Shown here: piece by piece, positions 5,142 to 27,971 of the stretch
Numbering within the stretch: position 1 is the first letter of the stretch
How the letters are laid out: each line of letters starts with the position of its first letter
The notes under the pieces: model-generated
Told to the model about the DNA's origin: nothing
Databases searched by the model: none
Seen by the model: only the letters and a program-made list of their open reading frames with translations
Assembly (NCBI RefSeq): GCF_023806635.1
Contig: NZ_JAMTDQ010000071.1
Location: forward strand, 17,362 to 81,361
Length of the DNA stretch: 64,000 bases
Source: Accumulibacter sp.
GTDB taxonomy: Bacteria; Pseudomonadota; Gammaproteobacteria; Burkholderiales; Rhodocyclaceae
Direction of reading: 5' to 3'
Made by a program: the position numbers and the translations under genes

Positions 5142-8100
5142 TCAGCTCTGCCGCGCCACTTGCCGGCCGGCAAAGAGCGCATCGAGTTCGTCGATCAGTC
5201 GCCGCGGCGGCCGTTCGACGTGCAGGCCGCGGCTGGCCGAGTCGCCGCCACGCAGGAAGACGTACACCGCCGCACCGACGTGACGATCATAGTCGTAGTC
5301 GGGCAGCCGCGCGCGCAACAGGCGGTGCAGCGCAACGAGGTAGAGCACGTACTGCAGGTCGTAGCGGGCGTGCAGGATCGCTTCGCGCAGCGCTGCGGGG
5401 GTGTATGCGGCAGCCGCCGCTCCCAGCCAGTTCGATTTGTAATCCACCACGTAATGGCGCCCCTGATGCTCGAAGACGAGATCGATGAAGCCCTTCAGCA
5501 TGCCGTTGAGCTGGCCGGCCTGCAGCGCCGGCCGTGGCGCGCCGGCAAGGGTGTGGGAGCAGACCAGCTGGTCGACGCGCAGCAGGTCGACCGCGTGCAC
5601 CGGCAGCCAGAACTCCATCTCGGCGCGCGCCACAGCCAGCTCGCACAGCCGCAGCGTCGTCGCCGCTGCCACCTGACCGGCCGGCAACTGCCACGGCCGC
5701 GTCAGGAAGCCCTGCAACCACGCCGAGAGCAGGCCGATCCATTGCTCGCGGCCGCTCGTCCGGCAGCAGCGCGCGACCAGTTCGTGGCGCAGCGGCGCGT
5801 CGCCGGCGACCTGCGCGAAGCCCTCGGCGGCAGTCGCCTCGAGCAGCTCATGCAGGAAGGTTCCGGCTTCGGCACCGCGCGGGAAATCGTGCAGCGAAGC
5901 GCTGCCGAGCGGTGCCGCCGCGGGCGCTGTGCCGACGGGCCGTTCGACCGTCGCCCGCGTCTCGCGCAGGATCTCCTCGGCAGCCGTTTCGGCCGCCGCC
6001 GGCGACGCCGCGGCATCGTCGGCGGCGGCGATGCGCAGCGCGGAGTAGCTGGCGATCCACCAGTGCTCGCGCAACACCCGTGCCGACTCGCGCGCGCTGC
6101 CGAGCTGCCGGCGACTCTCCGGCGTGCGGAAGCGCTCTCCGCTCGCCGCCGCCGCCGGCAGCAGCGCGATGTGCGGACAACCGGCGGCGAGCGCCTGCAG
6201 CCGCAGCGGCAGCTCGTCCGGCGCCAGTTCCTCGCCGCCGCCGAGCAGGTGGCCGAAGGCGCTCTGCTGCAGGCCGGCGAGCGGCGCCACGCCCAACCAG
6301 GTGAGATGCTGCGCCCGCGTCAGCGCGACGTAGAGCTTGCGCAGGTCCTCGGTAAGGCGCTCGCGGTCGGCGCGCTCGACGATCGACGGGTCGCTGCCCA
6401 GCGACACCTGCGGACGACCCTCGCCGTCGTGCCACTTCAGCGGCAAGGGACTTTTCGCCGTGATCGCCCGGTAATTGCAGGCGAAGGGCAGGAAGACGAG
6501 TGGATACTCGAGGCCCTTGGCCTTGTGTACCGTCACCACCTGCAGCAGTTCGGCATCGCTTTCGAGGCGCAACTGCCGCGCGTCGCCGCTGCTGGCTGCC
6601 GCCGGCTGCCGCCGTTGCCCGGCGAGATGGCGCAGCAGCGCCTGCGGGCCATCGAGCAGGGCGCTCGCCTGCTGCAGCAGTTCGGCCAGGTGCAGGAGGT
6701 TGGTCAGGGTGCGCTCACCGCCCGGCGGCGGCTGCGCGCCCGGCGCCGCGCCGGTCACGCGACCGAGCAGGCGGGCGGGCACCGAGAAATCGTGCAGCAG
6801 CCGGCGCAGCATCGGCAAGACACCCTGCCGCAGCCAGCACTCGCGATAATCGCGAAACTGCACGACGCGCGCCTCCCACGCCGTTTCGTCGTGCTGCAGG
6901 GCGTCGAGTTCGTGCCAGCCGAGCGCCAGCGTCGCCGTCGCCAGGGCGCTGCGCAGCAGACGGGGATCATCCGGCTCGGCGACGGCGGCCAGCCAGTGCT
7001 GCAGCTCGAGCGCCTCGTCGCTGTCGAAGACGGAATCGCGATCCGACAGGTAGACGCTGCGCACGCCGCGCTGCAGCAGCGCGCCGCGGATGGCGTCGGC
7101 CTCGCGGCGGTTGTTCACCAGCACCGCCAAGTCCGCCGGACGCAGCGACCGCAGCCCACCGGCGGCGGCGAAGCCGGCGCGACCGGCCTGGCCGAGGTTG
7201 AGCAGGCGGACGATCTCCTCGGCGCAGGCGACGGCCATCAGCGCGAGGTAGTCGGTCTTGCTCAGCCCCTTGTCACCCGCTGCCGGCAGGAAGCAGGCGA
7301 CGAGCGCAGGGAGGCTGGCGCCGTCAACCTGCAAGGCGTCTGCGCGCCCCTGCGCCTGTGCCGCCTCGAAAGGCAGGGGGTTGCCGGCCGCGCTGCGAAA
7401 GCCGAAGGCGCCGCTCCCTTCGCGGCGCTGCTCGGCGAAGGCGAAGCAGTGGTTGGTCGCCGCCACCATCTCCCGGCTGGCGCGAAAGTTCGTCAGCAGC
7501 GTCTGGATGCCGCCGCTGCAGGCGCTCCTGGCGGCGAGGTAGGTGTGGATGTCGGCGCCACGGAAGGCATAGATCGCCTGCTTCGGATCGCCGATCAGGA
7601 TCAGCGCCGCTGGCTCGGAGGCGGGCGCCGGCCGATAGACGGCGTCGAAGATCCGGTACTGCACCGGGTCGGTGTCCTGGAACTCGTCGATCAGCGCCAC
7701 CGGGAACTGCTGCCGGATGGCTGCCGCCAGCCGCTCGCCGCCGTCGCCGTGCAGCGCCGCCGCGAGCCGCGTCAGCAGTTCGTTGAAGCCCATCTGCGCG
7801 CACGCTTCCTGTTCGCCGGCGAAGCGTTCGGCCACCCAGTGCGCGGCGTGGCAAAGCACCTCATCCCGCGCCTGCGGCAGCGCCGCCAGTTCGCTCGCCA
7901 GCCCGGCGATCGCCAGCAACGCCGGGTGCTCCGGCGGCGAACCGGATTTCCAGGCTTCGCGCAGCCCGGCCGGCGTCAGTCGCTGCCAGCCTGTCTTCGT
8001 CAGGTCCGGGCTGCCCATCCCGGCATCCTCATGCCAGGCGCGCAGCGCTTCCAGCCACGGCCGGTAGTAGCGACCCTGCAGCTTGTGGCCGTCGACCAGC

Positions 8101-8897
8101 CGCTGCGCGACCGCCGCGTCGAGCAGATCGTGCAGTTCGCCCACCCAGCTCCGCCACGGCGCCTTGAGTTCGGCCAGGCGTTGCTGCCGCAGCGCGCGCG
8201 CGCGCCCGATGGCGTCCTGCGGCGGCACTGCCGCCGGCAGCAGGGCAACCTCATCGACCAGCCCGGCGACCACCTGCTGCAGCGCCTCGGGACCCGGCCA
8301 CCACTGCCGCAGCTCGCCCGCCGCGGCGGCATCGAGCGGCACGACGAAGCTGCGCCAGTAGTCGCGCACGACTTCCGCCAGCAGCTCCTGCTGGTCGCTC
8401 TCCAGTGTCTGCGCGAACAGGCTGTTGCTGGCAAACGCGTGCTCGCGCAGCATGCGGTGGCACCAGCCGTGGATCGTCGACACCGCCGCATCGTCCATCG
8501 CCTCGGCCGCGAGCTGCAGCGTGCGGGCACAACCCGGCCACTGCTGCGGCGGGTACTCGGCGCGCAGCGCCTGCAACGCGGCGTCGGCAGCATCCCCCGG
8601 ATCGCCGCGGAAACACGCCGCGGCGGTCGCAAGGCGGCGGCGGATGCGGTCGCGCAGTTCCTCGGTCGCCGCTTCGGTAAAGCTGACGACGAGGATCTCG
8701 GCCGGCAGCAGCGGCCGCATGCGATCGCTGCCGTCGCCGTGGCCGAGAACCAGCCGCAGGTAGAGGGCCGCGATGGTGAAGGTCTTGCCGGTGCCGGCGC
8801 TCGCCTCGATCAGCCGCAGGCCGGAAAACGGCAGGCGCAGCGGGTCGAGCACCTGGCGTGGCACGACGGCGTCGTCGCTCGCCACGCTGCCGCTCAC
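5142..8897 (-). CDS. recB: Exodeoxyribonuclease V subunit beta (RecB helicase-nuclease)
   Basis: RecB carries the 3'-5' SF1A (UvrD-like) motor and the only nuclease domain of RecBCD. Walker A is ASAGTGKTFT at residues about 33-42, the DEXX-type motif is 'LIDEFQDTDPVQYRIF', motif III is 'LIGDPKQAIYAFRGAD' and later motifs include 'VTVHKAKGLEYPLV' and 'LYVALTRAQ'. The nuclease active site is visible near residue 1150 as 'YVVDYKSNWLG' (D and K of the D-x-K motif), with 'GFIDLVFEH' before it. At 1251 residues the length fits the family. Its start overlaps the recC stop by four bases, which suggests translational coupling. Confidence 0.96.
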   Translation of the reverse strand: MSGSVASDDAVVPRQVLDPLRLPFSGLRLIEASAGTGKTFTIAALYLRLVLGHGDGSDRMRPLLPAEILVVSFTEAATEELRDRIRRRLATAAACFRGDPGDAADAALQALRAEYPPQQWPGCARTLQLAAEAMDDAAVSTIHGWCHRMLREHAFASNSLFAQTLESDQQELLAEVVRDYWRSFVVPLDAAAAGELRQWWPGPEALQQVVAGLVDEVALLPAAVPPQDAIGRARALRQQRLAELKAPWRSWVGELHDLLDAAVAQRLVDGHKLQGRYYRPWLEALRAWHEDAGMGSPDLTKTGWQRLTPAGLREAWKSGSPPEHPALLAIAGLASELAALPQARDEVLCHAAHWVAERFAGEQEACAQMGFNELLTRLAAALHGDGGERLAAAIRQQFPVALIDEFQDTDPVQYRIFDAVYRPAPASEPAALILIGDPKQAIYAFRGADIHTYLAARSACSGGIQTLLTNFRASREMVAATNHCFAFAEQRREGSGAFGFRSAAGNPLPFEAAQAQGRADALQVDGASLPALVACFLPAAGDKGLSKTDYLALMAVACAEEIVRLLNLGQAGRAGFAAAGGLRSLRPADLAVLVNNRREADAIRGALLQRGVRSVYLSDRDSVFDSDEALELQHWLAAVAEPDDPRLLRSALATATLALGWHELDALQHDETAWEARVVQFRDYRECWLRQGVLPMLRRLLHDFSVPARLLGRVTGAAPGAQPPPGGERTLTNLLHLAELLQQASALLDGPQALLRHLAGQRRQPAAASSGDARQLRLESDAELLQVVTVHKAKGLEYPLVFLPFACNYRAITAKSPLPLKWHDGEGRPQVSLGSDPSIVERADRERLTEDLRKLYVALTRAQHLTWLGVAPLAGLQQSAFGHLLGGGEELAPDELPLRLQALAAGCPHIALLPAAAASGERFRTPESRRQLGSARESARVLREHWWIASYSALRIAAADDAAASPAAAETAAEEILRETRATVERPVGTAPAAAPLGSASLHDFPRGAEAGTFLHELLEATAAEGFAQVAGDAPLRHELVARCCRTSGREQWIGLLSAWLQGFLTRPWQLPAGQVAAATTLRLCELAVARAEMEFWLPVHAVDLLRVDQLVCSHTLAGAPRPALQAGQLNGMLKGFIDLVFEHQGRHYVVDYKSNWLGAAAAAYTPAALREAILHARYDLQYVLYLVALHRLLRARLPDYDYDRHVGAAVYVFLRGGDSASRGLHVERPPRRLIDELDALFAGRQVARQS

Positions 8898-16596: not shown

Positions 16597-16675
16597 GAAC
16601 CTGCCGGGCGGCTGTTGCCGCTGCCCAAGGCCGTGTCATTGCCTCTCCGGCGCCATCGCGATCTGGACCCGCAAA

Positions 16676-16708
16676 CGCGGCGCAGCGGGCCCTGCAGGCC
16701 CCGCCGCG
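16676..16708. terminator. Two-part GC hairpin between convergent genes
   Basis: Arms CGCGGCG (16676-16682) and CGCCGCG (16702-16708) flank an inner GGGCC/GGCCC stem with a 5-base loop and a 4-base bulge. It lies between the discoidin-like gene and dps, which converge here. No T-tract follows on either strand. Confidence 0.35.
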
Positions 16709-16711
16709 CGA

Positions 16712-17209
16712 TCATCCCTCCTCGAGCAGGCTGCGCAGCATCCACGCCGTCTTCTCATGCACCTCGAGTCGCTGCGTCAGGAGATCGGTGGTCGGCTGAT
16801 CGTTGGCCGCGGTCACCACCGGCAGCAGTTCGCGCGCCGTCCGTGCCGTCGCCTCCTGCGCGGCGACGAGATGGCGGATCATCTCCGTTGCCCGTGGAAC
16901 CCCCTCCACCTCGGCGATCGAGGCAATGCGGCTGAACTCGCGATAGGTGCCTGGCGCCGGGTGACCCAGTGCGCGAATCCGCTCGGCGATGACGTCGAGC
17001 GCGGCCCATTGTTCCGTGTACTGCGCCATGAACATCAGGTGCAGTGTGTTGAACATCGGCCCGGTGACGTTCCAGTGGAAGTTGTGCGTCATCAGGTAGA
17101 GGGTATAGCTGTCGGCGAGCAGTGCCGACAGGCCGTGCGCGATCTTCTCGCGATCGTCGGCGCTGATGCCGATGTTGATCGCGGGTGCAGTGGCAGTCAT
17201 CTTTTCCAT
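16712..17209 (-). CDS. dps: Dps-family ferritin (DNA protection during starvation)
   Basis: Dps dodecamers oxidise and store ferrous iron using peroxide and shield DNA. The 165-residue product has the family ferroxidase residues in 'MTHNFHWNVTGPMF' (His) and 'EQWAALDVIAERIRALG' (Asp, Glu), and the closing helix 'QRLEVHEKTAWMLRSLLEE'. The ATG at 17209 was chosen because GAAGGAGGTCG, a near-perfect ribosome-binding site, lies just upstream; an earlier in-frame start would include that site. The gene stands alone on the minus strand. Together with yaaA, bcp and the hemerythrins it fits a lifestyle of alternating oxygen exposure. Confidence 0.93.
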   Translation of the reverse strand: MEKMTATAPAINIGISADDREKIAHGLSALLADSYTLYLMTHNFHWNVTGPMFNTLHLMFMAQYTEQWAALDVIAERIRALGHPAPGTYREFSRIASIAEVEGVPRATEMIRHLVAAQEATARTARELLPVVTAANDQPTTDLLTQRLEVHEKTAWMLRSLLEEG

Positions 17210-17415: not shown

Positions 17416-19524
17416 CTATGGTGAGCGAGGCGCGACTGCCGACCCCCGTGCGCCCTCACCAGGTTTCTGGCGTCGTGTTGCGGGCGCTTCGCCACGCACC
17501 GCGAAGACCGGCGCCACCGCCGGCCACAGACCGCGTTCGCTGGCTTGCGCCCCATCGAAGACCAGCCAGCTCTGGCCGCCGTAATGCGGCAACGGCCTCG
17601 CCAGCGAGCGCAGCGCTGCCGCATCGCGGGCAGCGACCGCCAGCAGCGGACCGCTGTCGACGGTCCACACCCGCGCCGAGCCGCGCGTGGCGTTGCCGCC
17701 CAGGCTCTGCGCCTGCTGCGGCAGACCATTGGCGAGCAGCGCGGCATCGACCTCCGCCGGCGTACCGACGATCATCACCGCTTCGCCCGCCGTCAGCGCC
17801 GGCCGCAGGTCGCCGACGGCGAGCAGCGCCGCAGGCCGCTCGAAGAAACGCCCGACGACCGTCGCGGCAGCCTCGCGGAACGCCGCATCGCCGCCGACGA
17901 CCAGCCAGCGCGGCTGCAGTGCCCCGATCCAGCGACGCAGGATGAGCGGCAGTTCGGCTTCGTGCAGCCGCCGCCAGGTGCGCGCCTGCGGATCGATGCG
18001 GATGCTTGCGGGAGGAAAGTCGAGGTCGAAATCGACCAGACGGCGCTCGCCGGTGAGGTCGACCCAGCGCGTGACGCTGTGCGCGCCGCCGCTGATCTCG
18101 ACCGGCAGTCTGCTCGCCAGCGGCGGGCTCGTCTGGCGCAAGGTCAGGCGCAGGCGATGGCCCGACGCCGAGCGACTGGCGACGGCGTCTTCGACCGAGA
18201 AAGCCGGCAGCTGCCGCGAATCGAGCCACTGCGCGAAGACGCCGCGCAGGTCGCCGCCGGCGGCCCGCTCGAAGGCTCGCCGCAGATCGTCCCAGCTCGC
18301 GTGGCGAAAGCGGTGTGCCTGCCAGAATTCACGCAACCCCTGCGCGAATGCCACTGCTCCGATGCGATCACGCAAGGCCAGGAAGAACATCGCTGCCTTG
18401 CCATAACCGACCGTCGCCTCGGCGCCATGGCGGCGGCTGCGGAAGTCGCGCAGTGCCGGCTGCTCGCTGGCCGGCAATGCGGCCGCGTCGCGCAGCCAGG
18501 CGAGCCGCATCGCGTGCGCTGCTGCCGCTGAACGCTCCTCGGCGTAGGCGTAGTCGGCAAGGAAGGTGGTCAGCCCCTCGCTCCAGTTGCCCATGCGGGC
18601 ATCGACGTAGACGCCGTTGCCCCACCAGTTGTGCAGCACCTCGTGGCCGAGCGAGGTGGCGCGGATGAACGGCAGGCGCAGGACATCGACGCCGAGGTAG
18701 GTCAGCGTCGGCATGCCGAGACCGGTCGGCAGCGGACTGGCAACGATCGAGAAGGCGTCGTAGGGGTAGGCGCCGATGAGTCCGCCGTAGCGCTCGAGGT
18801 AGCGCGCGCTGTCGGCGAGGTAGCCTTCGGCGAGCCCCGGCTCGGCGTCGAGTGCAGGCGGGAAATAGGTCCGCAGGCGCAGCGGCGAGACGCCGGCACG
18901 CGCCAGGAGACGTTCGCGCACACGCCACGGAGCGGCCATCAGGTCGACGCCATCGGTCGGCTGCGCGAACTCGAATTCGGCTTCGTAGCGATCGCCGGCT
19001 GCGCGTGGCAAGCGCTCCACCCGCAGGCTGCCGGGGACGACGGCGCGTTGCTCGCCGGGCACCGACACGCGCACCCGGTAGCTGAACAGCGCCAGCGGCG
19101 GCTGCGGGTACCAGCCGCTGCCCGCGGCGAGGAACGATCCGGCGGCGGCCGCCATCGGCGGCAGGCGCTGCAGGACCTGACGATGGTCGCGCCCCGTCTC
19201 GGTCGCCGGCAGCGTCCCGCCGTAAGCGATGCGCACGCGGTCGACGCCTGCCAGCGCGGCGATTCGCCAGATGCGCGTGCCGTCGCCACGACTGCCGGCG
19301 ATGCTCGCCGCGACGGGCTGGCCAGCCGGCGCCCGCACCGCGCGCACGCTCAACGAATCGTGCAGGGCGAACTGGAAGGTCCGCCCGCCGGGCGGCAGTT
19401 CGGCGACCGCCTCGAGCCGCCGCGTCGCCGGTTCGAGCGTCACCTCCAGATCGAGGTCGGCGGCCGCGCGCGCACCCGGCGCGAGCAGCAGGAGTGCGCC
19501 GACAAGCCACGCCCGCGGCATCAT
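17416..19524 (-). CDS. M1-type (gluzincin) metallopeptidase, exported
   Basis: The 702-residue product starts with a signal peptide (MMPRAWLVGALLLLAPGARA). The zinc site is visible near residue 290: HEVLHNWWGN gives the HExxH motif, and 'NWSEGLTTFLADYAYAE' supplies the downstream glutamate of M1 peptidases. The N-terminal ~200 residues are beta-rich and the C-terminal ~250 are unlike classic aminopeptidase N, so the substrate is unknown. The ATGATG start overlaps the stop of a ChaN-like reading frame; next to this copy, however, the ChaN frame is only a frameshifted fragment (see 19521-19943). An intact ChaN gene lies 6 kb upstream, beyond the inserted segment. Confidence 0.85.
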   Translation of the reverse strand: MMPRAWLVGALLLLAPGARAAADLDLEVTLEPATRRLEAVAELPPGGRTFQFALHDSLSVRAVRAPAGQPVAASIAGSRGDGTRIWRIAALAGVDRVRIAYGGTLPATETGRDHRQVLQRLPPMAAAAGSFLAAGSGWYPQPPLALFSYRVRVSVPGEQRAVVPGSLRVERLPRAAGDRYEAEFEFAQPTDGVDLMAAPWRVRERLLARAGVSPLRLRTYFPPALDAEPGLAEGYLADSARYLERYGGLIGAYPYDAFSIVASPLPTGLGMPTLTYLGVDVLRLPFIRATSLGHEVLHNWWGNGVYVDARMGNWSEGLTTFLADYAYAEERSAAAAHAMRLAWLRDAAALPASEQPALRDFRSRRHGAEATVGYGKAAMFFLALRDRIGAVAFAQGLREFWQAHRFRHASWDDLRRAFERAAGGDLRGVFAQWLDSRQLPAFSVEDAVASRSASGHRLRLTLRQTSPPLASRLPVEISGGAHSVTRWVDLTGERRLVDFDLDFPPASIRIDPQARTWRRLHEAELPLILRRWIGALQPRWLVVGGDAAFREAAATVVGRFFERPAALLAVGDLRPALTAGEAVMIVGTPAEVDAALLANGLPQQAQSLGGNATRGSARVWTVDSGPLLAVAARDAAALRSLARPLPHYGGQSWLVFDGAQASERGLWPAVAPVFAVRGEAPATRRQKPGEGARGSAVAPRSP

Positions 19525-19943
19525 TCCGGCGGCAAGCGGACGACGATGTCGTGCATCCTATCGCCGCGTCCGACGCGCAGCGGCAGCCAGGTTCCGGGCG
19601 CTACCGCCCGCACCGGCGCGATCACGGCCACTGCCTGGCCCGCCGGGCAACCGGCGACCTCGAGCAGCCGGTCGCCCGCCATCAGCCCGCTCTTCCCGGC
19701 CAGGCTGCCGGCGGTGACCGCCTGCACGCGCACACCGGACCTGGCACCGCCGATGTCTCCCACTGCACGCCGAGATCCGGCGGCGGCACTGGCATTGCCG
19801 GCTTCGACGGCAGCACGAAAAAGGCGTCGGCAAGGCCCATCCGTGTCTCGCGACACGCGTCGGCGAACGCCAGCGGCAGCAGCGTGACGACCGGGCCGAC
19901 GCCGAGCGCACGCAACCGATGCGCGACGCCATGACCGTGACGC
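19503..19943. repeat. Left copy of ~441-bp direct repeat
   Basis: It aligns with 25400-25841 over its whole length at roughly 85-90% identity by eye, in the same orientation, with one single-base deletion near 19762. It spans the last ~140 codons of a ChaN/PDZ gene and the first ~7 codons of the M1 peptidase gene. Similarity ends abruptly at 19943, after the shared ATGACCGTGACGC. Confidence 0.9.
19521..19943 (-). pseudogene. Truncated, frameshifted C-terminal fragment of a ChaN-like/PDZ gene
   Basis: Reading on the minus strand, one frame gives 'LRALGVGPVVTLLPLAFADACRE' and 'DAFFVLPSKPAMPVPPPDLGVQ', and a second frame continues with 'VRVQAVTAGSLAGKSGLMAG' and ends 'DIVVRLPPE'. Together they match the C-terminus of the intact gene at 25418-26623, including its PDZ-like domain. 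The frame breaks at a missing base near 19762. The N-terminal two thirds are absent. It has no start and is almost certainly a non-functional relic of a duplication. Confidence 0.85.
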
Positions 19944-20283
19944 CCGTACAGTCGTGGCCTCAATGCCTGCTGGTGCGGAACACGCGCCCTGGTAATGGGC
20001 GCACCCCTTCTCCCCGACCTTCAGAAGGATAAAGGACAAGAAATCCACTGAATCCGGTCGCCAAGCCCGATGGAGGTAAACCAGACTTTCCCACGCGATT
20101 CCCAAGTCTGGTGCATGGCATTCCATGAGCATCAAGGAATCGATTCGCAAGCGGCTGGTGCTCCGACGGACTTTCAGGGGTCGGAACACCGTCCTGGAAG
20201 ACCATGCCGGCGAGCAGATCGCTGGCCCGCCGAGGGGTGCCGGGCACCAGGCGGCGTCGAAACGCCGCCGTGGCGATCCCTTC
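19944..20283. other. Non-coding stretch at the left end of the inserted segment
   Basis: No convincing gene, tRNA or promoter is seen on either strand. A 95-codon minus-strand frame (19960-20247) has no ribosome-binding site and no recognisable sequence. The stretch begins exactly where similarity between the two direct repeats stops. Confidence 0.5.
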
Positions 20284-20847
20284 TCAGCGGCCGGTGCTGC
20301 GTCCAAGCATCGTGCGGACTTCCTGGTTCGCCGGCAGAACGTAGTCGTGGGCGGAGAGGACGGCGTTACTGACCGGCTGGACGATCTTGAGGTTGACGTA
20401 CACGAAGGAGGCGCCGACGGCGTAGCTGCCGAGGACGATGGCCTGCGCCTTGTTGCTGCGGGCGATGTCGCTGATTTCACGGGTGAGGATGAGTTCGCCT
20501 TCGCCGCGGCGCATGTAGATGGAGCCGCGCAGCTTGAGTTCGACCATCTGCCAGCCACGCTGCGAGAAGCGGGCGGAGATCTGCTCGGAGATCATGCGGC
20601 CGAGGGTCGATGACTGTTCGAGGGCGTCGATGTTGACGACGGTGGCGACAATCAGCGGGCCGCCGGCGGCGGTGCCGCCGAATTGTGCCAGGAGGGCGTC
20701 GGCGGCGCGGTAGTTGGTGGCGACGAGTTCGCTGTTCGCGGCCTGGGCGTAGGTGATCTCGGGAACTGCCTGCCGGGCGCCCTCGGTGGCGCAGCCAACG
20801 GCGGCAAGGCTGGCGAGGAGTGCGGCAAGGAGGACGGGCGATCTCAT
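20284..20847 (-). CDS. FlgO-family outer-membrane lipoprotein
   Basis: This 187-residue protein has a lipoprotein signal (LLASLAAVGC, Cys about residue 19). The body fits the FlgO domain (PF17680): 'VATVVNIDALEQSSTLGRMI', 'GWQMVELKLRG', 'LILTREISDIARSNKAQAIV' and 'GSYAVGASFVYVNLKIVQP'. In Vibrio, FlgO is an outer-membrane protein needed for flagellar stability, but stand-alone FlgO-like lipoproteins of unknown role are common in betaproteobacteria, and no flagellar gene is present here. The start overlaps the preceding lipoprotein gene by four bases, so the two are translationally coupled and probably work together in the outer membrane. Confidence 0.8.
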   Translation of the reverse strand: MRSPVLLAALLASLAAVGCATEGARQAVPEITYAQAANSELVATNYRAADALLAQFGGTAAGGPLIVATVVNIDALEQSSTLGRMISEQISARFSQRGWQMVELKLRGSIYMRRGEGELILTREISDIARSNKAQAIVLGSYAVGASFVYVNLKIVQPVSNAVLSAHDYVLPANQEVRTMLGRSTGR

Positions 20848-21623
20848 TGCTCACCTCGAACCGGGACGTTGAAGACCGGCCGCTGCGTGCCTTCTCCCCC
20901 GACGGCGACGTTGAAGAGCGGCGGTGCTTCGGTGTAGAGGCCGGCGTCGCTGTCGGCGGCGTAGTAGACGGCTGCGACGCGGCCGAGGTAGCGCGTGGCG
21001 TCGGCGGCCGAGACGGTGACAACTACCTCGGTCTGCGGCGTCGGGCCGGAGGCGTCTTCGGACTTGGCCCAGCGCCAGGCATCATAGCCACCGAACACGG
21101 CGGCGCCGGCGAGGCCGGCCGCGGCCGGGGTAGCGCTGGCGGCCAGACCATAGACGGCCCAGGCGCCGGCATAGATGGCGGTGGCAGGCACGAACTGGTT
21201 TTGCCGGTAGGGCGAGAAACGCACGGTCTGCACGTCGATGTCGATGGCGATGGCGGCAGCGCCCGGGCTGTGAGCCACGGCGACTTTGTGACTGACGAGC
21301 GCAGTGATGAAGGCGGCGCGGAAGTTCTGCGCGAAGACGGTCTGCTTGGCCGCCGGACGGACATAGACACGCGGGCAGATGGCGCCCGGATCGGCGCAGG
21401 CGACGCCCGGCGCGAGCGACCGCAGGAGTGCCTCGGCGCTTTTCTCGGCGACGATCGCCCAGTGTGCCGCGGCCTGCAGCTTGGGCTGATAGGATTCGGG
21501 GAAGTTGGTTGCCACCGGTGCGGCGCCGTAGGGCGCGGCGCAAGCGAGCAGCGTGCTGCCGGCGATCATGATCGACGCGACCCGTGCGGTCCGCCGTAAG
21601 GTGGTTCTGCGCTGTCCCTCCAT
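20844..21623 (-). CDS. Exported protein (probable lipoprotein) paired with the FlgO-like protein
   Basis: The 259-residue product has a signal ending in a lipobox-like 'TLLACAAPYG'. The mature part contains 'VYVRPAAKQTVFAQNFRAAFITAL' and 'AIDIDVQTVRFSPYRQN', then an alanine-rich hydrophobic stretch ('GAWAVYGLAASATPAAAGLA') that could insert in a membrane, and a beta-rich end ('TEVVVTVSAADATRYLGRVA'). I do not recognise a named family. A GGAGGGAAC ribosome-binding site supports the ATG at 21623. Its stop overlaps the start of the FlgO-like gene. The pair resembles envelope-assembly lipoproteins, but the role is unknown. Confidence 0.7.
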   Translation of the reverse strand: MEGQRRTTLRRTARVASIMIAGSTLLACAAPYGAAPVATNFPESYQPKLQAAAHWAIVAEKSAEALLRSLAPGVACADPGAICPRVYVRPAAKQTVFAQNFRAAFITALVSHKVAVAHSPGAAAIAIDIDVQTVRFSPYRQNQFVPATAIYAGAWAVYGLAASATPAAAGLAGAAVFGGYDAWRWAKSEDASGPTPQTEVVVTVSAADATRYLGRVAAVYYAADSDAGLYTEAPPLFNVAVGGEGTQRPVFNVPVRGEQ

Positions 21624-21975
21624 TGTTCCCTCCGTGTTGGTTGAGATCGACTGGCGGAGTGTAGGACTAATTGCGCTTGGGTGCATCGGGTCACGGGCCA
21701 TCTGGCGCGGAAATCCTGGAAATCGAGAAAATTGCGTCCGACAAGCGCAGGCAGGTCCCGTGACGAACCGCGCGGCGGGCGCACACCCGGGGCGAGCGCA
21801 GTACCGCAGCAGTCGTTCCAGGACTGGGCGGCCAGGGCCTTCGATGCGCAGGCTGGCGTTCAGCGAGAAGCCGTCACCATGCGCCCGTCTTGCCATCGTC
21901 GGGGCTTGCTCCGGCTCAAGCACACCGCGTCGGGTCAACGCGCGCAGTTAGACGGCGGCGGACCCAGGACAGGCG
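21624..21975. other. Intergenic region, no gene recognised
   Basis: This lies between two minus-strand genes. Open frames here have no ribosome-binding site and no family resemblance. It probably holds the promoter of the lipoprotein pair, but I cannot point to a convincing -35/-10. Confidence 0.5.
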
Positions 21976-23136
21976 TCACCCGCTCCCTGCGGCAGCGAAG
22001 TACCTTTCGAGCTCGCGCTGTCCGGCCTGGCCCCGCGCCTCGAAGCCGAGCAGGTCCGCCATCGGCACGCTGCTGACCCGAATCCCGTTTGCGGACGAAG
22101 GGTCCGCCTTGATGACGTACCCGACAGGGGCGCCAGCTTCCCAGACCAGGACGTAGAGCGGGTCGCCGTGCCTTGCGTAGTCGATTCGCACCTTGCGTGC
22201 GAAAAGCCCGGCTGCGCCGTCCCTGCCGTGGATTGCGTTGTGGACCGATGCGTGGCTGCCAACCTTGCGCCACATCGTCTTGGTGTGAATCGCCCGGTAC
22301 AGGATCGGGCCGCCGGTCTGCGGCATGAAGCCCTGGACGTTCCCGGCCACGGGGGCATCTGGCGTCACCCTCGCCGCAACGGCACGTCCGCGCCCCGCTG
22401 CCGGCGAATGCTGCTCCTGTGCCGCGACTGGTCGCGATGCGGCGCCGGGTGCGGCTCCCGGGACCGGGGCAGTGCCCGTGGGCGCTGGCCCGGCAGCGAC
22501 AGCCTGGGTCGTGCGGGCAGCCTTGACGAGCGTCGGAAACCCCGCGTACTCGCTCGCGTGCGACCCCTGGTGATTCGCCATGCCTGGTCGCGTCAGGCAG
22601 CCTTTGGGCGTCGCGTAGCTGTCGATCCGACGCATCGGCGCTTCGTGCCAGCCGATGTTGAACGCCGCGAGCCTCGTGAAGAAGTAAAGGCTGCTGTACG
22701 GCAGGTGATCGTGAATCCACCATGCCATCGCAGTCCACGACCCACCCTTGTCTACGTGATCCACGAGCCACGGAATGACGATGCAGGCCGTCGCCCCGCG
22801 CTTTCCTTGCGCATCGGCATAGTCCCAGATGTGGCCGGCGTAGTTCGACTCGTTGCTGGCGCAGTTGAGCTTGTTCTCGTTGCCGAACTTGTTGACCAGG
22901 GGCGAGCGGTAGGCGGAGCGGATGTGAATGCGTCCGAACGTCGCCTGCAGCGGCTCCAGCAGGTGTTCGCAGAGGAGCTTTCCGACAGCGATCGCCTGCT
23001 CCGGGTGATCCGGCATGTTGCGCAGCCCGTGCCATGCCGCGATCTCGCTGTAGAGGAAGTCACGCATGAAGAAGTTCTGTGACAGGCGGACCCGGCCGAG
23101 ATCCTCGAGTCTGTCGTAGCTGGTGATCGTGCTCAT
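21976..23136 (-). CDS. Peptidase M15A-like protein with extra C-terminal domain
   Basis: The 386-residue product has no signal peptide. Residues ~15-130 follow the M15A (D-Ala-D-Ala carboxypeptidase-fold) pattern: 'LSQNFFMRDFLYSEIAAWHG', 'LCEHLLEPLQATFGRIHIRS', 'SAYRSPLVNKFG' and 'NYAGHIWDYADAQG', where the His and the following Asp would be zinc ligands. A Pro/Ala-rich linker (about 220-260) leads to a ~120-residue C-terminal domain ('GPILYRAIHTKTMWRKVGS', 'VLVWEAGAPVGYVIKADPSS') that I do not recognise. A cell-wall-cleaving or binding role, as in phage-type endolysins, is possible. AGGAAAGG precedes the ATG. Confidence 0.6.
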   Translation of the reverse strand: MSTITSYDRLEDLGRVRLSQNFFMRDFLYSEIAAWHGLRNMPDHPEQAIAVGKLLCEHLLEPLQATFGRIHIRSAYRSPLVNKFGNENKLNCASNESNYAGHIWDYADAQGKRGATACIVIPWLVDHVDKGGSWTAMAWWIHDHLPYSSLYFFTRLAAFNIGWHEAPMRRIDSYATPKGCLTRPGMANHQGSHASEYAGFPTLVKAARTTQAVAAGPAPTGTAPVPGAAPGAASRPVAAQEQHSPAAGRGRAVAARVTPDAPVAGNVQGFMPQTGGPILYRAIHTKTMWRKVGSHASVHNAIHGRDGAAGLFARKVRIDYARHGDPLYVLVWEAGAPVGYVIKADPSSANGIRVSSVPMADLLGFEARGQAGQRELERYFAAAGSG

Positions 23137-23146
23137 TTGCCTTTCC

Positions 23147-23409
23147 TCAAACGAAAGCGATTCGTCTGGTCATGCCGCTCGTCCCCGGCGCCTGGCCGGC
23201 CACCTCTGCCAGGCCATCGGGGTCCGTGTGCAGCTCGATCCCGATACGGTCGGGGAAATGCTGGCCCGGCGCGTCGTACAGCGCGTGCTGGCGGGTCACC
23301 AGGAACAGCCACTCGCCGCGCGCAAGGAAAAAGCCGCTGGCGTTGGTCCGCCCCCCCGCTTCCCGAAAGTGCAGATGCGCGCCGCGGTGAGAAGTATGGT
23401 GTCGATCAC
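23147..23409 (-). pseudogene. Remnant of a trypsin-like peptidase gene, frameshifted in a G-run
   Basis: From a GTG at 23409 one frame reads 'VIDTILLTAARICTFGKRGG' and a second frame continues 'RTNASGFFLARGEWLFLVT' and 'HFPDRIGIELHTDPDGLAEV'. This order resembles the N-terminus of bacterial trypsin-like peptidase-domain proteins ('TNASGFFF...LYLVT.RHV'). The two frames meet at a run of seven G (minus strand; C-run near 23351); eight would restore one frame. The C-terminal two thirds are missing, and the frame runs into the start of the M15-like gene. It is probably a dead gene; a sequencing error in the homopolymer is possible, though the truncation would remain. Confidence 0.45.
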
Positions 23410-23857
23410 CGGATGAGGGAGGGTGGGGTCGTTTGACTCGGTTGTGGTCCTGCCAGCCGCCATTCTGCGTCAAAGTGTGCTCGATCGGTGCCGATTTCAG
23501 CTGATCAGCGTTCCTGGCCGGCCGGACGACTGGTTGACGGTTGACCGACACGCCGGAGAAGGGCCGGTTGGACCGTGTGGAAGCGACTGCCCAGAGGCTC
23601 CAAGAGCTTGCAGACAGAACAGCGCAGCGCGGGGTTGGGTAGCGTTCCGGTTCGGACAAAAGCGAGCAAGACCCGGCAGTGAAAAACGTCTCTGGAGTGT
23701 CGGGAAATTTTACACTTGCCCGAACCCGCGATCCACGCCGCATGCCGAAACCCATACTAGATAAATGGTTACACAAAGTGGTACGCATCTTGCGTGCGAA
23801 TTGGGTGCGCGTATCAAAACATTCCAGCGCGCCAATCACTTTTTCGGGGGAAAAATC
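23410..23857. other. Intergenic region upstream of the PEP-CTERM gene
   Basis: Base composition is visibly lower in GC than the surroundings towards its right end. The only element I can support is the sigma-54-type promoter at 23779-23794. The rest shows no gene. Confidence 0.5.
23779..23794 (+). promoter_or_regulatory. Sigma-54 (RpoN) -24/-12 promoter
   Basis: TGGTACGCATCTTGCG fits the TGGCACG-N4-TTGCW consensus with the invariant GG and GC exactly ten bases apart. It would start transcription near 23805, about 53 bases before the ATG of the PEP-CTERM gene. RpoN control of PEP-CTERM proteins through a PrsK/PrsR-type system is known from related floc-forming betaproteobacteria. Confidence 0.6.
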
Positions 23858-24628
23858 ATGTTGCGCAAGCCATTCAACCTCGCCGGGGCCATTGCCCTTT
23901 TCGGAGCAGTTGGAATTGCTCACGCCGGTGTCGTCGATCCTACCAAGTCGGTGGCGGGGAGCACCCAACTGGAGTTGGCGGAGCAATGGGTACAGTGGGC
24001 GTTCAGCACGGATGCGGCTTCCAACCCGTTGCTGGACACCACCGGGGCGTCCGCGCACGTCAACAATAACGGGCCAGTTTTCTTCGTCGCGGGTAACACC
24101 GGCGGAAGTAGCGCACGCACCTTCACGGTGCCAGCAGGCAAGCCGATCTTCTTTCCCGTCGTTAACGCCTTCGATCTTGAAGTACCAACGGATGGATGCG
24201 ATGTGCAGTGCGCGTTCAACTTCATTCCCGGCGTTGGCGGCGCGACCGGTCTTTATGCAAGGCTTGACGGTCAGGATCTGCTCACCTTCCCCAGCTACCG
24301 GCAGACGAGCACCGCATTCTTCACGGTGGACTTTCCAGCCAGTCTCCGCGACGCTTTCGGCTTTCCTCCCCAGTATGTTGGCCTCCTTGACGCCATTACC
24401 GACGGTTACTGGGTTGCCGTTGAAGGTCTGACTCCCGGCCCGCACACCCTGGAGTTTGGCGGCACCATTCCCGAGTTGGCCCCTGGCTACCAGCCATTCA
24501 CGCTGGCAGTGACCGACACCGTCAATGTTCCAGAGCCGGGGACGCTGGGTCTGCTGCTACTTGGTGCTGTCGCCGCCTGTGGTCGGCGCCGCTCGGCTGC
24601 GACGGATCCCGTCTCCGCCAGAGAATGA
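23858..24628 (+). CDS. PEP-CTERM sorting-domain exported protein
   Basis: The 256-residue product has a signal peptide (GAIALFGAVGIAHA) and a classic PEP-CTERM tail: VPEPGTLGLLLLGAVAACG followed by RRR. Exosortase recognises such tails, and the proteins end up in the extracellular matrix or on the surface of floc-forming bacteria. The body is a beta-rich domain with 'GPVFFVAGNTGGSSARTFTV', 'GKPIFFPVVNAF' and a cysteine pair 'CDVQC', with no catalytic motif seen. The ATG at 23858 follows GGGGGAAAAATC. Codon use is less GC-biased than in neighbours, consistent with acquisition. No exosortase gene is in the window. Confidence 0.9.
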   Translation: MLRKPFNLAGAIALFGAVGIAHAGVVDPTKSVAGSTQLELAEQWVQWAFSTDAASNPLLDTTGASAHVNNNGPVFFVAGNTGGSSARTFTVPAGKPIFFPVVNAFDLEVPTDGCDVQCAFNFIPGVGGATGLYARLDGQDLLTFPSYRQTSTAFFTVDFPASLRDAFGFPPQYVGLLDAITDGYWVAVEGLTPGPHTLEFGGTIPELAPGYQPFTLAVTDTVNVPEPGTLGLLLLGAVAACGRRRSAATDPVSARE

Positions 24629-25399
24629 AAAAACCCGTTCCCGCCTAGGACCTGCTGAGGTACGAGAGGACGCCGGCCAGCGCTATTCCACCATTCCGCG
24701 AAACCGCTCGCCGCGCAGTGCGACGGGCTGGCCACTTTCCGATTCTTCAAGCAGCCCCATGCTCCAGAGGGTCGGCCGCATGTAGCCGCGGTCGGCCCCC
24801 GGAACGAGAATGGGTACGGCAGGTATGGGACCTTGGCCCGTGGTGAAATTCCTGTGATCAGGCTTTCTCCAGGCCAAAGGCAAAGCCCGTTGGGCGAACG
24901 CCGTCCTCACGGCAAGCAGCCAGACGCTGGCCGCACCGCTCGGCGAGCCGCTCTGAAACAGTTCGGTCGCCGTTTGCCCGCTGACAGGGACCATCGCCGA
25001 CGATCCACAGCGTGTTGCGCTCGATCGCGAAGACGCAGCAGCCGCCGCGCCGATCGGCCAGTTCGGTGCAGCGCAGGGGTCTCTGCATTTTGCTGCGCGC
25101 GCCATCATCGGGACGGGCGTCCCGAACACCGCGCCCCGTCATCCAGCGATACCGATCGCCTGCCACGGCGCCTTCGGGCATCAGCCGGAGGCGGGTGTCC
25201 GGTGCCTCGCCGGACGGCGAGTCGATGGGCGTCTGCCGTGGAACTCATGGCTGCCGTGCAGGCTGCCAGCGGTGTCGGCGGCGCCAACCGGTGCCGAGAG
25301 CAGAAGGTTTGCCGCGACGCATCCGGGCAGAATCGAGGGCAAGCCATAAGCCATGCTCACCCCACAACCGGCGTGCATCTACCAGCAGCAATATTCCGG
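24629..25399. other. Degenerate stretch at the right end of the inserted segment
   Basis: No recognised gene. The best candidate is a 107-codon minus-strand frame at 24858-25181 ('RCTELADRRGGCCVFAIERN', 'GDRTVSERLAERCGQRLAAC'); it has uneven composition, no clear ribosome-binding site and no family I can name, so I do not call it. It may be the remains of a gene. The right direct repeat starts at 25400. Confidence 0.5.
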
Positions 25400-25841
25400 C
25401 AAGCCGCGCCCGCGGCATCATTCCGGCGGCAAGCGGACGACGATCTCGAGCGTCGTATCGCCGCGTCCGACGCGCAGCGGCAGCCAGGTGCCGGGCGCGG
25501 CCGCCCGCACCCGCGCGATCACGGCCGCTGCCTGGTCTGCCGGGCGACCGGCGACCTCCAGTAGCCGGTCGCCCGCCATCAGCCCGCTCTTCTCGGCGAG
25601 GCTGCCGGCGGTGACGGCCTGCACGCGCACACCGGAACCGGCGCCGCCGATGTCTTCCAGCTGCACGCCGAGACGAGGCGGCGGCACGGGCAGTGCCGGC
25701 TTCGACGGCAGCACGAAGAGGGCATCGGCGAGGCCCGGCTGCATCTCGCGACACGCGTCGGCGAACGTCAGCGGCAGCAGCGTGGCGACCCGGCCGACAC
25801 CGAGGGCACGCAACTGATGCGGGACGCCATGACCGTGACGC
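25400..25841. repeat. Right copy of ~441-bp direct repeat
   Basis: It is the partner of 19503-19943. It contains the intact 3' end of the ChaN/PDZ gene and, on the other side of its stop, the first codons of an M1 peptidase (MMPRARLAGILLLV), which lose similarity to the intact peptidase after about 14 codons, near 25390. Confidence 0.9.
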
Positions 25842-26623
25842 AGGTGTCCGCTGCCGATGACGCCGACGACCAGCGGCGGCCTCCCATCGCCCTGCCCCGA
25901 CGCCAGGCGTGCGGCCAGCGCTTCGGCCATGGCGCGGTCCCAGTTCAGCTGCGCCTCGACGAAATGGCGGAAATCACGGCTGTCGCGACCGCCCTGGCCA
26001 TGCGCGTGTTCGCCGTAGATGCTGAAAAGGAAGTCGCGATAGGCCTCGCTGGCCGGCGCCGCGTGGCCGACACCTTCGCGTTCGTTCTCCGGAACGGCAT
26101 CCCAGCCCTTGTCGCCGATCGCCCGCGTCAGCCGCGAATCGACGTTGAGCGCCAGCATCGGCAGACGGTTGATGCGCGCGAACTCGAACAGCGGCTGGTA
26201 GAACGCAGCGGGAAAGCCCCAGATCTCCCCCCAGCCGGTCTGCGCCAGCAATGCCGGCGCGCTCAGTTCGCCGGCCACCCAGCGATCGAGCACCGGCTGC
26301 ACACGGCGCGGGAACATCTCGAAGCCGACGACCATCTGCGGCCGCAGCGCGTGCAGCCCGGCAAGCACCTGCGCCTGCCAGCGGTGATGATCCTCGTCAT
26401 CATGCTGCTCGCCGAGGAGGACGACATCGGCCGCCGCGGCGCGCGCCAGCACCTCGTTGGCGGGGGCACTCTCGGCCGTGCCATCGACGATCCGCAGCCA
26501 GCCCGTGGGCACCGTGCAGGCGGCGGGCACTGCTGCCGAGCCGGGCAGCAGCGACACGACCGCGACGGCAACGGCCAGCGCGAGCAATGCAAGCACCGGC
26601 CAGCGGCCTCGCTGACAACGCAT
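25418..26623 (-). CDS. ChaN-family protein with C-terminal PDZ-like domain
   Basis: ChaN-type (DUF399/heme-binding uptake) domains occur in iron-regulated lipoproteins of Gram-negative bacteria. After an N-terminal membrane/signal segment ('WPVLALLALAVAVAVVSLLP') the 401-residue product has the family motifs 'VVLLGEQHDDEDHHRWQAQV', 'VVGFEMFPRRVQPVLDRWV', 'LNVDSRLTRAIGDKGWDAVP' and 'VVGVIGSGHLRHGHGVPHQL'. The last ~85 residues form a PDZ-like domain ('VRVQAVTAGSLAEKSGLMAG...DRLLEVAGRP'). The ATG at 26623, ten bases after the LOV gene stop, was preferred to an earlier frame running into that gene. Its original downstream neighbour, the M1 peptidase, has been displaced by the inserted segment. 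Confidence 0.85.
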   Translation of the reverse strand: MRCQRGRWPVLALLALAVAVAVVSLLPGSAAVPAACTVPTGWLRIVDGTAESAPANEVLARAAAADVVLLGEQHDDEDHHRWQAQVLAGLHALRPQMVVGFEMFPRRVQPVLDRWVAGELSAPALLAQTGWGEIWGFPAAFYQPLFEFARINRLPMLALNVDSRLTRAIGDKGWDAVPENEREGVGHAAPASEAYRDFLFSIYGEHAHGQGGRDSRDFRHFVEAQLNWDRAMAEALAARLASGQGDGRPPLVVGVIGSGHLRHGHGVPHQLRALGVGRVATLLPLTFADACREMQPGLADALFVLPSKPALPVPPPRLGVQLEDIGGAGSGVRVQAVTAGSLAEKSGLMAGDRLLEVAGRPADQAAAVIARVRAAAPGTWLPLRVGRGDTTLEIVVRLPPE

Positions 26624-26633
26624 CGCCGGCGCC

Positions 26634-27065
26634 TCAGCCAAAACGCGGCTGCTCACCGCTGCCGCCGTCAGGCATCGCCGCACCGAGATCGTACTGCACA
26701 CCCAGGTAGTAGATCACCCGGCCCTCGCGATCGCACAGCGGGCGGATCGACAGCCGGTTGAGGAACATGCTGCCGTCGCGGCGATAATTGCGCAGGGTCA
26801 CGACGCAGGCTTCCTGCCTTGCCAGCGCGGCGCGGATCGTCGCCAGCGCCGGCTGCTCGCGATCCTCTCCCTGCAGGAAGCGACAGTTGCGACCAACGAT
26901 CTCCGCCTGCGAGTAGCCCGACATCTCCTCGAACACCTTGTTCGCATAGACGATCGGATTGTCGGGCAGATCGGGGTCGGACAGGGTGATGCCATTGACG
27001 CAGGAATCGAGAATCTGCGTCAGCACCCAAGGGATCAAACCGTCGTCTTTTGCCGTCGTGAACAT
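26634..27065 (-). CDS. Short LOV-domain (PAS) blue-light photoreceptor
   Basis: The 143-residue product is almost entirely one LOV domain. 'PDNPIVYANKVFEEMSGY' and GRNCRFLQG (Cys at residue 61, the flavin-adduct cysteine of LOV proteins) are followed by 'LRNYRRDGSMFLNRLSIRPL' and 'YYLGVQYDL', which contain the Asn and Gln residues that hold FMN in LOV domains. There is no output domain, as in the short LOV proteins of Pseudomonas putida (142 residues). A GGGAGA ribosome-binding site supports the ATG at 27065; the track-length start further upstream would span that site. It lies between an SRPBCC gene and the ChaN-like gene on one probable transcript. Confidence 0.9.
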   Translation of the reverse strand: MFTTAKDDGLIPWVLTQILDSCVNGITLSDPDLPDNPIVYANKVFEEMSGYSQAEIVGRNCRFLQGEDREQPALATIRAALARQEACVVTLRNYRRDGSMFLNRLSIRPLCDREGRVIYYLGVQYDLGAAMPDGGSGEQPRFG

Positions 27066-27115
27066 GGGTATCTCCCGCAAGGCAGCATGGCAGGGCAATG
27101 CACTGGCGCGCAGGG

Positions 27116-27568
27116 CTAGTCCCTGCTGAGCATTTCCTTTTCGAGGAGCAGTTTCAGCGTCTTCACCGTCCGCCGGGCACCGTCCTGCAGCGCGATCCGT
27201 ACCAGCTTCTCGAACGGCCGCAGGCGTGGTTCGAGGGCGGCGATTTCGAAGCTGAAGCGGATCGTCGTCGATGAACTGCAGTCGTCGAACTCGTAGAGCG
27301 ATGAATAGGGGGCCGAAATCCCCTGAAAGCGGACTCGCTTCGGTGCTTCGAGTTCGCTCACCTCGAACACCGATTCGGACTTGTGACCCTGATCGACCCG
27401 CACCTGACGCGCCTGGAAACCCGGCCGCACAGGGCCTGGCGAAAGCGGCTCGAGACGCAGGACTTCCGGCGACCAGCGCGGATAGTTGACGAGGAAATCG
27501 AGCGCGACGAACTGGAAGACGCGGTCGATCTCCTCGAACACCAAGACGTCAGCCGTGGCGCCGATCAT
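27116..27568 (-). CDS. SRPBCC (START/polyketide-cyclase-like) family protein
   Basis: The 150-residue protein has the helix-grip pattern: 'ATADVLVFEEIDRVFQFVAL', a tryptophan-containing 'YPRWSPEVLRLEPL', 'KRVRFQGISAPYSSLYEFDD' and a long C-terminal helix 'RTVKTLKLLLEKEMLSRD'. Such proteins bind hydrophobic ligands in a central cavity; ligand and reaction are not predictable here. It is the first gene of the SRPBCC-LOV-ChaN series, 50 bases before the LOV start. Confidence 0.8.
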   Translation of the reverse strand: MIGATADVLVFEEIDRVFQFVALDFLVNYPRWSPEVLRLEPLSPGPVRPGFQARQVRVDQGHKSESVFEVSELEAPKRVRFQGISAPYSSLYEFDDCSSSTTIRFSFEIAALEPRLRPFEKLVRIALQDGARRTVKTLKLLLEKEMLSRD

Positions 27569-27971
27569 TGCTCAGCCCTTGCCCTCCATGGAGACTGCCC
27601 CGCTCCGTCATGCCGTGTACCGCTCCGGCAGCGGACGGGGCGCCGCCGCTGGCGGCATTTCAGTCCGAACCGGCGGTAGTCTGCTACCCTTCAGATGCAA
27701 AGTAAAGTCATCCGGTCTCGCGCGGTCTCGCCGCCGACAGCGTCGGGGGCTAGTCAGGGGCGATGCCTGTCTGCTACCCTTCGGCCTCAAAGCACACTTG
27801 GAGCACTGGCCTGATGTTTGCTCACCGAGGCACTTCGCTGACTCAGCCGGACCTCCCACCGCGGGGCGGCGGCCTGGGCCAGTCTCCGCCGCTGACGTCA
27901 GCCGGCCGGCGTCGCCGGCGCGACGATGCGCGGTCGGCCGCCAGGGCGGATGCCGCGCGCCGGAGAAGCTG
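27569..27971. promoter_or_regulatory. Divergent upstream region with a 14-bp direct repeat
   Basis: This region separates the minus-strand SRPBCC/LOV operon from the FHA-EAL gene. GTCTGCTACCCTTC occurs twice (27679-27692 and 27769-27782), 90 bases apart, each followed 5 bases later by CAAAG. The arrangement suggests a regulator binding site or a small duplication. CGGTCTCG also repeats near 27714-27731. No protein gene is seen. Confidence 0.4.

Follow-up and report, generated by a model that had tools for sequence, protein, structure and literature searches.

How could accessory DNA come to lie between two genes of one operon and leave both of them whole? The question is raised by a 64,000-nucleotide stretch of an Accumulibacter sp. 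genome (assembly GCF_023806635.1, contig NZ_JAMTDQ010000071.1; 4,474,217 bases in 119 contigs), hereafter called the window, in which a 5.4-kb segment (19944-25382), bounded by two long direct repeats, separates a ChaN gene from an M1-family peptidase gene. Read along the minus strand, an intact ChaN gene (25418-26701; Pfam PF04187, haem-binding ChaN, 1.3e-62; C-terminal PDZ domain, PDZ_2, 2.8e-8) is followed by the first 13 codons of M1, the segment, the last 141 codons of ChaN and an intact M1 gene (17416-19524, minus strand; PF01433, Peptidase_M1, 1.5e-8), an order that had been described in an earlier note made from the sequence and that is now supported by Pfam for both genes. The repeat on the M1 side (copy A, 19486-19943, minus strand) is a displaced, frameshifted ChaN tail that runs into M1, and the other one (copy B, 25383-25841, minus strand) consists of the 3' end of the intact ChaN gene together with the 13 M1 codons. 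Estimated by the earlier note at about 441 bp and 85-90% alike, the two copies measure 458 and 459 bp in exact alignment and are 89% identical, with a single 1-bp indel and a start-to-start distance of 5897 bp. Their homology is clear over 19499-19943 and 25396-25841, the remaining ~13 bp at the M1-side end (25383-25395 in copy B) being decayed or partly due to chance, and the longest identical run that they have in common is 38 bp. A whole-genome search found the repeat at these two positions only. Among 81 genomes searched, the window's own included, 30 carry ChaN, and a second ChaN tail adjoining M1 occurs in the window's genome alone. With 458 bp in register, two copies in the genome and a second tail unique among the 81 genomes, the repeat pair is beyond chance. 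The overlap between the ChaN stop and the M1 start is preserved in copy A. The open frame on the minus strand that terminates at this former ChaN stop (19521-20558) also extends over 345 codons, across the frameshifted copy A and into the segment, and M1 therefore continues to overlap the end of such a frame.

The state of the locus before the arrival of the segment can be read from the relatives. By M1, the closest genomes belong to Candidatus Accumulibacter, with Ca. A. adjunctus first. The comparison covered the loci of 26 relatives out of 109, several genomes being represented twice (e.g. L004 and L034), and the segment 19944-25382 has zero matches in these 26 ChaN-M1 loci, ten of which (L030-L039) cover 12-22 kb. 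Seven close relatives (G027, G015, G003, G025, G023, G004 and G019, of which G027 is taken as adjunctus and G025 as conexus on the basis of identical match values) possess an uninterrupted ChaN-M1 pair with one copy of the repeat, on which the ChaN and M1 matches overlap; in adjunctus this overlap amounts to 459 bp. Since the relatives have one copy and an uninterrupted pair, the window contains an insertion, as the earlier note had supposed, and its target is present twice. Its alternative of a tandem duplication followed by a deletion is disfavoured by the absence of the segment near the locus in the relatives compared. Apparent irregularities at ChaN were also considered. An interruption of ChaN in G023 (contig C31; L033 9099-9416) is an assembly gap, 313 of its 318 bases being N. 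Extra ChaN matches are located on different contigs or in another part of the gene in G019, G021 and G067, and reflect one gene in two pieces in G023. Finally, the idea of an insertion hot spot at ChaN was set aside, the second tail beside M1 being confined to one of the 30 ChaN-bearing genomes.

The origin of the two copies was addressed by comparing them with adjunctus, from which copy B differs by 8.1% and copy A by 11.5%, the distance between A and B being 9.9%. When the ancestral state of each site was taken as the majority of three outgroup relatives, ten derived changes were found to be shared by A and B, three by A and adjunctus, and one by B and adjunctus; for seven changes, private or shared, the ancestral state was not clear, and three sites differed in all three sequences. 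In line with these counts, a tree of nine rows, seven of them relatives, groups A with B, apart from adjunctus (95.5/97), and each of the two other arrangements has a p value of 0.025 in the AU test. Both copies thus derive, on this comparison, from the window's own lineage. Besides, the two copies have changed in different manners. Copy A has 28 private changes, distributed 7:13:7 over the three codon positions with one outside ChaN, plus the frameshift, whereas copy B, the end of the intact gene, has 13, distributed 1:2:9, again with one outside ChaN (Fisher test of A versus B, p=0.006; a second Fisher test gives p=0.0002 and combines the changes of B with the sites at which adjunctus departs from A+B, not all of them being changes of adjunctus). 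The spread over all codon positions in A and its frameshift indicate that this copy decayed free of constraint, and the difference of about 10% between A and B accordingly stems mostly from the decay of the displaced ChaN tail. The 27 ChaN changes in A (~420 sites, 6.4%) are comparable to the nine third-position changes of B in ~140 codons. The third-position difference from adjunctus is 16.7% for M1 and 18.1% for ChaN, or ~8-9% per lineage, and, on an assumed clock, the age of the insertion would be about three quarters of that of the adjunctus split. The resident genes themselves are both still under constraint: by codon position, M1 has changed 17:19:39 on the window branch and 12:15:39 on the adjunctus branch, and ChaN (residues 53-427) 7:13:24 and 7:9:22, respectively, the window-branch counts including changes that precede the insertion.

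Taken together, these data make it very probable that the window holds an insertion whose long target duplication was copied from the lineage's own DNA. Any account of it must explain two junctions with unrelated sequence at target positions 458 bp apart, a target copy from the same lineage, and the absence of loss. In the favoured account, to which a probability of roughly 0.6 is given as a whole, accessory DNA would have entered the ChaN-M1 operon in a single event after the split from adjunctus, and its ends would have joined the chromosome illegitimately at points 458 bp apart, one within M1, 13 codons from its start, and the other within ChaN, 141 codons short of its end. These points may have belonged to sister copies of the locus, one to each, or one template may have been left and re-entered 458 bp upstream, either of which would copy the interval; this route for the joining is credited with slightly better than even odds. 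As a result, an intact ChaN would flank the segment at one end and an intact M1 at the other, no resident gene being lost; the spare ChaN tail, copy A, has since decayed as a pseudogene. At junction J1 (19940-19943), an alignment reveals a 4-bp microhomology, GCGT, common to ChaN and to IS91-type loci. Ku was not found in the window's genome by a search that gave a match in one of 14 control genomes, which is evidence against end joining of the classical type; joining independent of Ku, or a switch of template, would remain.

The inserted segment is composed of pieces that match separate places across the genus, and is therefore regarded as a mosaic of accessory genes and insertion sequence (IS) relics. 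Starting from J1, 19944-20092 (minus strand; matches to IS91-type loci) is what remains of an IS91-type element's upstream region, truncated by the junction. This relic is followed, on the same strand, by a FlgO-domain gene (20284-20847; PF17680, 3.8e-38) and its partner gene (20844-21623), lipoprotein-like by eye and with no family match, the pair being found elsewhere in the genus; by a relic (21780-21947) that corresponds to the central part of an IS91-type (Y2) transposase, has 75% amino-acid identity to the L141 transposase (2e-20) and owes its family to the Y2_Tnp match in the homologous locus L140; by a 386-aa open reading frame (ORF) weakly resembling a peptidase M15 or phage endolysin (21976-23136; PHROG 894, 9.5e-6; 28-30% to a phage 'putative peptidase M15'; no Pfam match); and by a fragment of a trypsin-like peptidase gene (23205-23510), to which similar DNA exists in many genomes of the genus and whose matching stretch in plasmid records is annotated as serine protease or trypsin-like peptidase. 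On the plus strand, and hence antisense to ChaN, lies a gene for a PEP-CTERM protein (23765-24628; PF07589, 7e-6) within a unit spanning 23672-24806. The FlgO, partner and PEP-CTERM genes differ from their homologues mostly at third codon positions (e.g. 14:10:46, for the FlgO gene against its homologue on adjunctus contig C3, 44:32:88 and 32:25:58), which points to constraint over their history and not since the insertion. The statement of the earlier note that no integrase or transposase is visible needs to be divided: the six segment ORFs scanned contain no intact recombinase gene, no tyrosine or serine recombinase (integrase) and no plasmid backbone gene, but relics of an IS91-type element are present at two places. 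An intact Y2 transposase is absent from the segment, the single match of this family in the genome being on contig C91, and no restriction-modification gene was found in the segment.

Two further insertions of the same form were met in other genomes. Outside the window, a single long DNA match to the PEP-CTERM unit exists, on contig C18 of adjunctus (a further match, of 79 bases, is in G013), and this contig (L144) carries a 4.65-kb insert, 250 bases of which are N, after a 198-codon SnoaL-like gene, whose last ~207 bases are repeated on the far side of the insert (3092-3297 and 7953-8160). The window's own genome has the empty site at this locus. In the two inserts, the PEP-CTERM unit is placed and oriented alike with respect to the intact gene, and its gene is single-copy in both genomes, near the intact gene and antisense. 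The adjunctus repeat is decaying too (7:7:5 by codon position), and the insert holds a Transposase_29 fragment; another fragment in it, integrase-like by eye, has no Pfam match. In G025 (contig C64; L217/L218, 9611-19634), the same SnoaL-like gene has a 9.1-kb insert with a 280-bp repeat, 97% identical, whose copies are 2.5% apart and sisters in the tree (99.2/99). This insert contains genes for a DNA methylase, a PD-(D/E)XK nuclease and an AAA protein, as well as candidate defence matches and, adjoining the intact gene, an ORF of 259 codons that has a transposase domain (DUF772). The adjunctus and G025 duplications both end at the stop codon of the SnoaL-like gene and start at positions 392 and 321, respectively, of its 597. 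The form is uncommon in the stretches surveyed: in 1,163,853 bases of G015, G027 and G000, chosen by contig and including both cases then known, eight direct pairs fell within the limits, two being the window and adjunctus cases and the other six having been seen by coordinates and open frames only. The PEP-CTERM homologues do not always lie within such inserts, five of six further loci having no bracketing direct repeat. The sixth, on contig C54 of G001, is bracketed by a 283-bp repeat (L271 4433-4712 and 7402-7684) that is 91.5% identical and whose copies are small whole ORFs.

That adjunctus and G025 show this architecture again, at a different gene and with duplications of other lengths, favours insertion with joins on the lineage's own target. 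Nevertheless, several points weigh against it. The KH and SH tests of the other tree arrangements give p=0.05; the adjunctus C18 pair, with its 206 columns, is too short to be placed in a tree; no donor of the segment was found, and J2, the other junction, therefore has no sequence against which a microhomology could be sought; the one at J1 is based on IS sequences of relatives, and four bases in GC-rich DNA are weak; and the inserts of the window, adjunctus and G025 all have transposase remains, so that transposition may have a role. In this respect, an IS91-type transposition with J1 at the end of the element seems unlikely, J1 being inside a stretch conserved among IS91-type loci. Moreover, a circle from the same lineage would yield an identical sequence by one crossover.

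This last route, a single-crossover (Campbell) integration of a circle carrying a ChaN-M1 fragment of the same lineage, is the alternative that survives best, although it is considered the less credible one at odds well short of even. The earlier note had seen in the gene order exactly the product of such a recombination, and the product does have that form; it is one of at least two routes, which the sequence alone cannot separate. A crossover within the repeat would leave no marker of its position, both copies being of one lineage. IS91/ISCR-type elements move by rolling circle, and the relics of one in the segment would fit a circular intermediate. However, two illegitimate joins would already be needed to build the circle, in addition to the crossover, the position of J1 within the conserved stretch is not in its favour, and there is neither a plasmid backbone gene among the ORFs scanned nor substantial coverage by plasmid records, the 15 listed of 18 matching ones covering at most 11% of the segment. 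A further, improbable explanation would take two steps: the segment would first split M1, and DNA of the same species with a ChaN tail and M1 would then recombine, by homology within M1 and by an illegitimate join at the IS relic, making M1 intact again. The persisting constraint on M1 and the microhomology at J1 are consistent with it, as are genes of the ComEC and DprA families in the genome, but these families are also present in 10 and 11, respectively, of the 14 control genomes and so have little bearing on competence, and the scheme costs one extra event and has no known strain with a split M1.

Two other proposals have very little left to recommend them. The earlier note had explained the divergence of the repeats by an element that came from a related lineage and brought its own ChaN-M1 fragment. 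The distance between A and B (9.9%) is indeed near that between A and adjunctus (11.5%), but A and B are sisters, and the changes of A over all codon positions, with its frameshift, are those of a pseudogene and unlike those of a working foreign allele; this explanation has given way to neutral decay of A and is now very unlikely. Elements of the integrase type that carry a replacement for the 3' end of their target gene, such as e14 and phage 21 in icd, offer another model, to which the adjunctus and G025 duplications, both ending at the stop codon of one gene, lend some appearance. It is likewise given hardly any weight, as no integrase is present among the segment ORFs scanned, the adjunctus candidate fragment has no Pfam match, the duplications start at different places within the same gene and the target genes differ, and the copies derive from the host lineage in the window and in G025. 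Least credible of all is an assembly artefact, which the earlier note had named as a way in which its reading could fail, or a strain mixture; the 119 contigs and the short duplications mimicked by scaffold gaps in adjunctus might bring this to mind, but it is at odds with exact shared runs of 38 bp at most, unrelated sequence joined at both junctions, and the pseudogene-like decay and frameshift of A.

Insertion with copying of the resident target thus being preferred, the window case is a new case of a rare kind of insertion that has already been described. According to the accounts given in citing papers (PMC1643837, PMC3031569, PMC3154945, PMC4978471), Nobusato et al. (2000, Gene 259:99-108) described 'insertion with long target duplication' on the basis of two Helicobacter pylori genomes, as inserts that a related genome lacks and that lie between long direct copies of their target, the length of which varies; restriction-modification inserts are reported there as a frequent association and not a requirement. 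As far as these accounts go, the defining features recur here: the insert is absent at the orthologous site of relatives, and the direct target duplication is long and of variable length (459, ~207 and 280 bp across the three cases). The copies come from the host's own target, by tree, in the window and in G025, the adjunctus alignment being too short to tell. The methylase, nuclease and AAA genes of the G025 insert resemble the restriction-modification inserts of those accounts, from which the window insert differs in that no such gene was found in it and in that it is old, its copies being 10% apart. Also in comparison with those accounts, the origin and decay of the copies were here tested by tree and codon position. 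Similar flanking repeats are reported for Arabidopsis (PMC2869330). As for the joining on sister copies, Johnston et al. (2013, PMC3784515) report that transformation merodiploids of Streptococcus pneumoniae arise by interchromatid integration, where a fragment joining two sister copies at different points likewise leaves a duplication. The main cases of that work differ in that they pair via homologous repeats and duplicate ~100-900 kb, while one clone had a small duplication of 3,276 bp without flanking repeats, of unclear mechanism.

With respect to IS91/ISCR elements, the window segment holds relics of one, but has no intact transposase, and J1 cuts a relic. Of the 19 papers matching 'insertion with long target duplication', none names Accumulibacter in the title, and there was no report of this sort among the 15 listed of 2,203 matches for Accumulibacter with genomic islands or insertion sequences. 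With the present case, a poorly explained form of gene mobility known from H. pylori is extended to a betaproteobacterium from the environment. It also offers a simple way to tell imported homology from self-duplication, namely the distribution of changes over codon positions in the displaced copy. The mechanism could be tested directly on more recent insertions, such as that of G025 with its 97% identical pair. Going further, one might tentatively, and with considerable doubt, envisage a recurrent route in Accumulibacter by which mixed cassettes, defence genes included, would enter operons harmlessly, with no recombinase in the cargo and with their ends joined to sister copies of a gene at points some hundreds of bases from each other. 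If this were true, each insertion would duplicate its target and leave all resident genes whole, the spare copy would act as a neutral clock dating it, and the PEP-CTERM unit in two inserts would mark a common donor pool.

Some minor observations concern the rest of the window. No tRNA or tmRNA gene was found in it, a promoter scan of the segment gave no site, such a scan being weakly informative for Accumulibacter, and promoter and terminator patterns showed no excess over shuffles. Two apparent 26-bp duplications relative to adjunctus (44059-44084 and 62851-62876) flank N runs in the adjunctus assembly and were discarded as scaffolding artefacts. Beside ChaN, a PAS/LOV gene and its upstream neighbour (26577-27643) are missing from adjunctus. 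Beyond M1, the interval 16599-16719 has ~70 to 120 bases in the window's genome, and its counterpart measures ~7.9 kb in adjunctus (L034), 2,064 bases of which are N, ~8.3 kb in conexus (L031) and ~1.7 kb in iunctus (L033).

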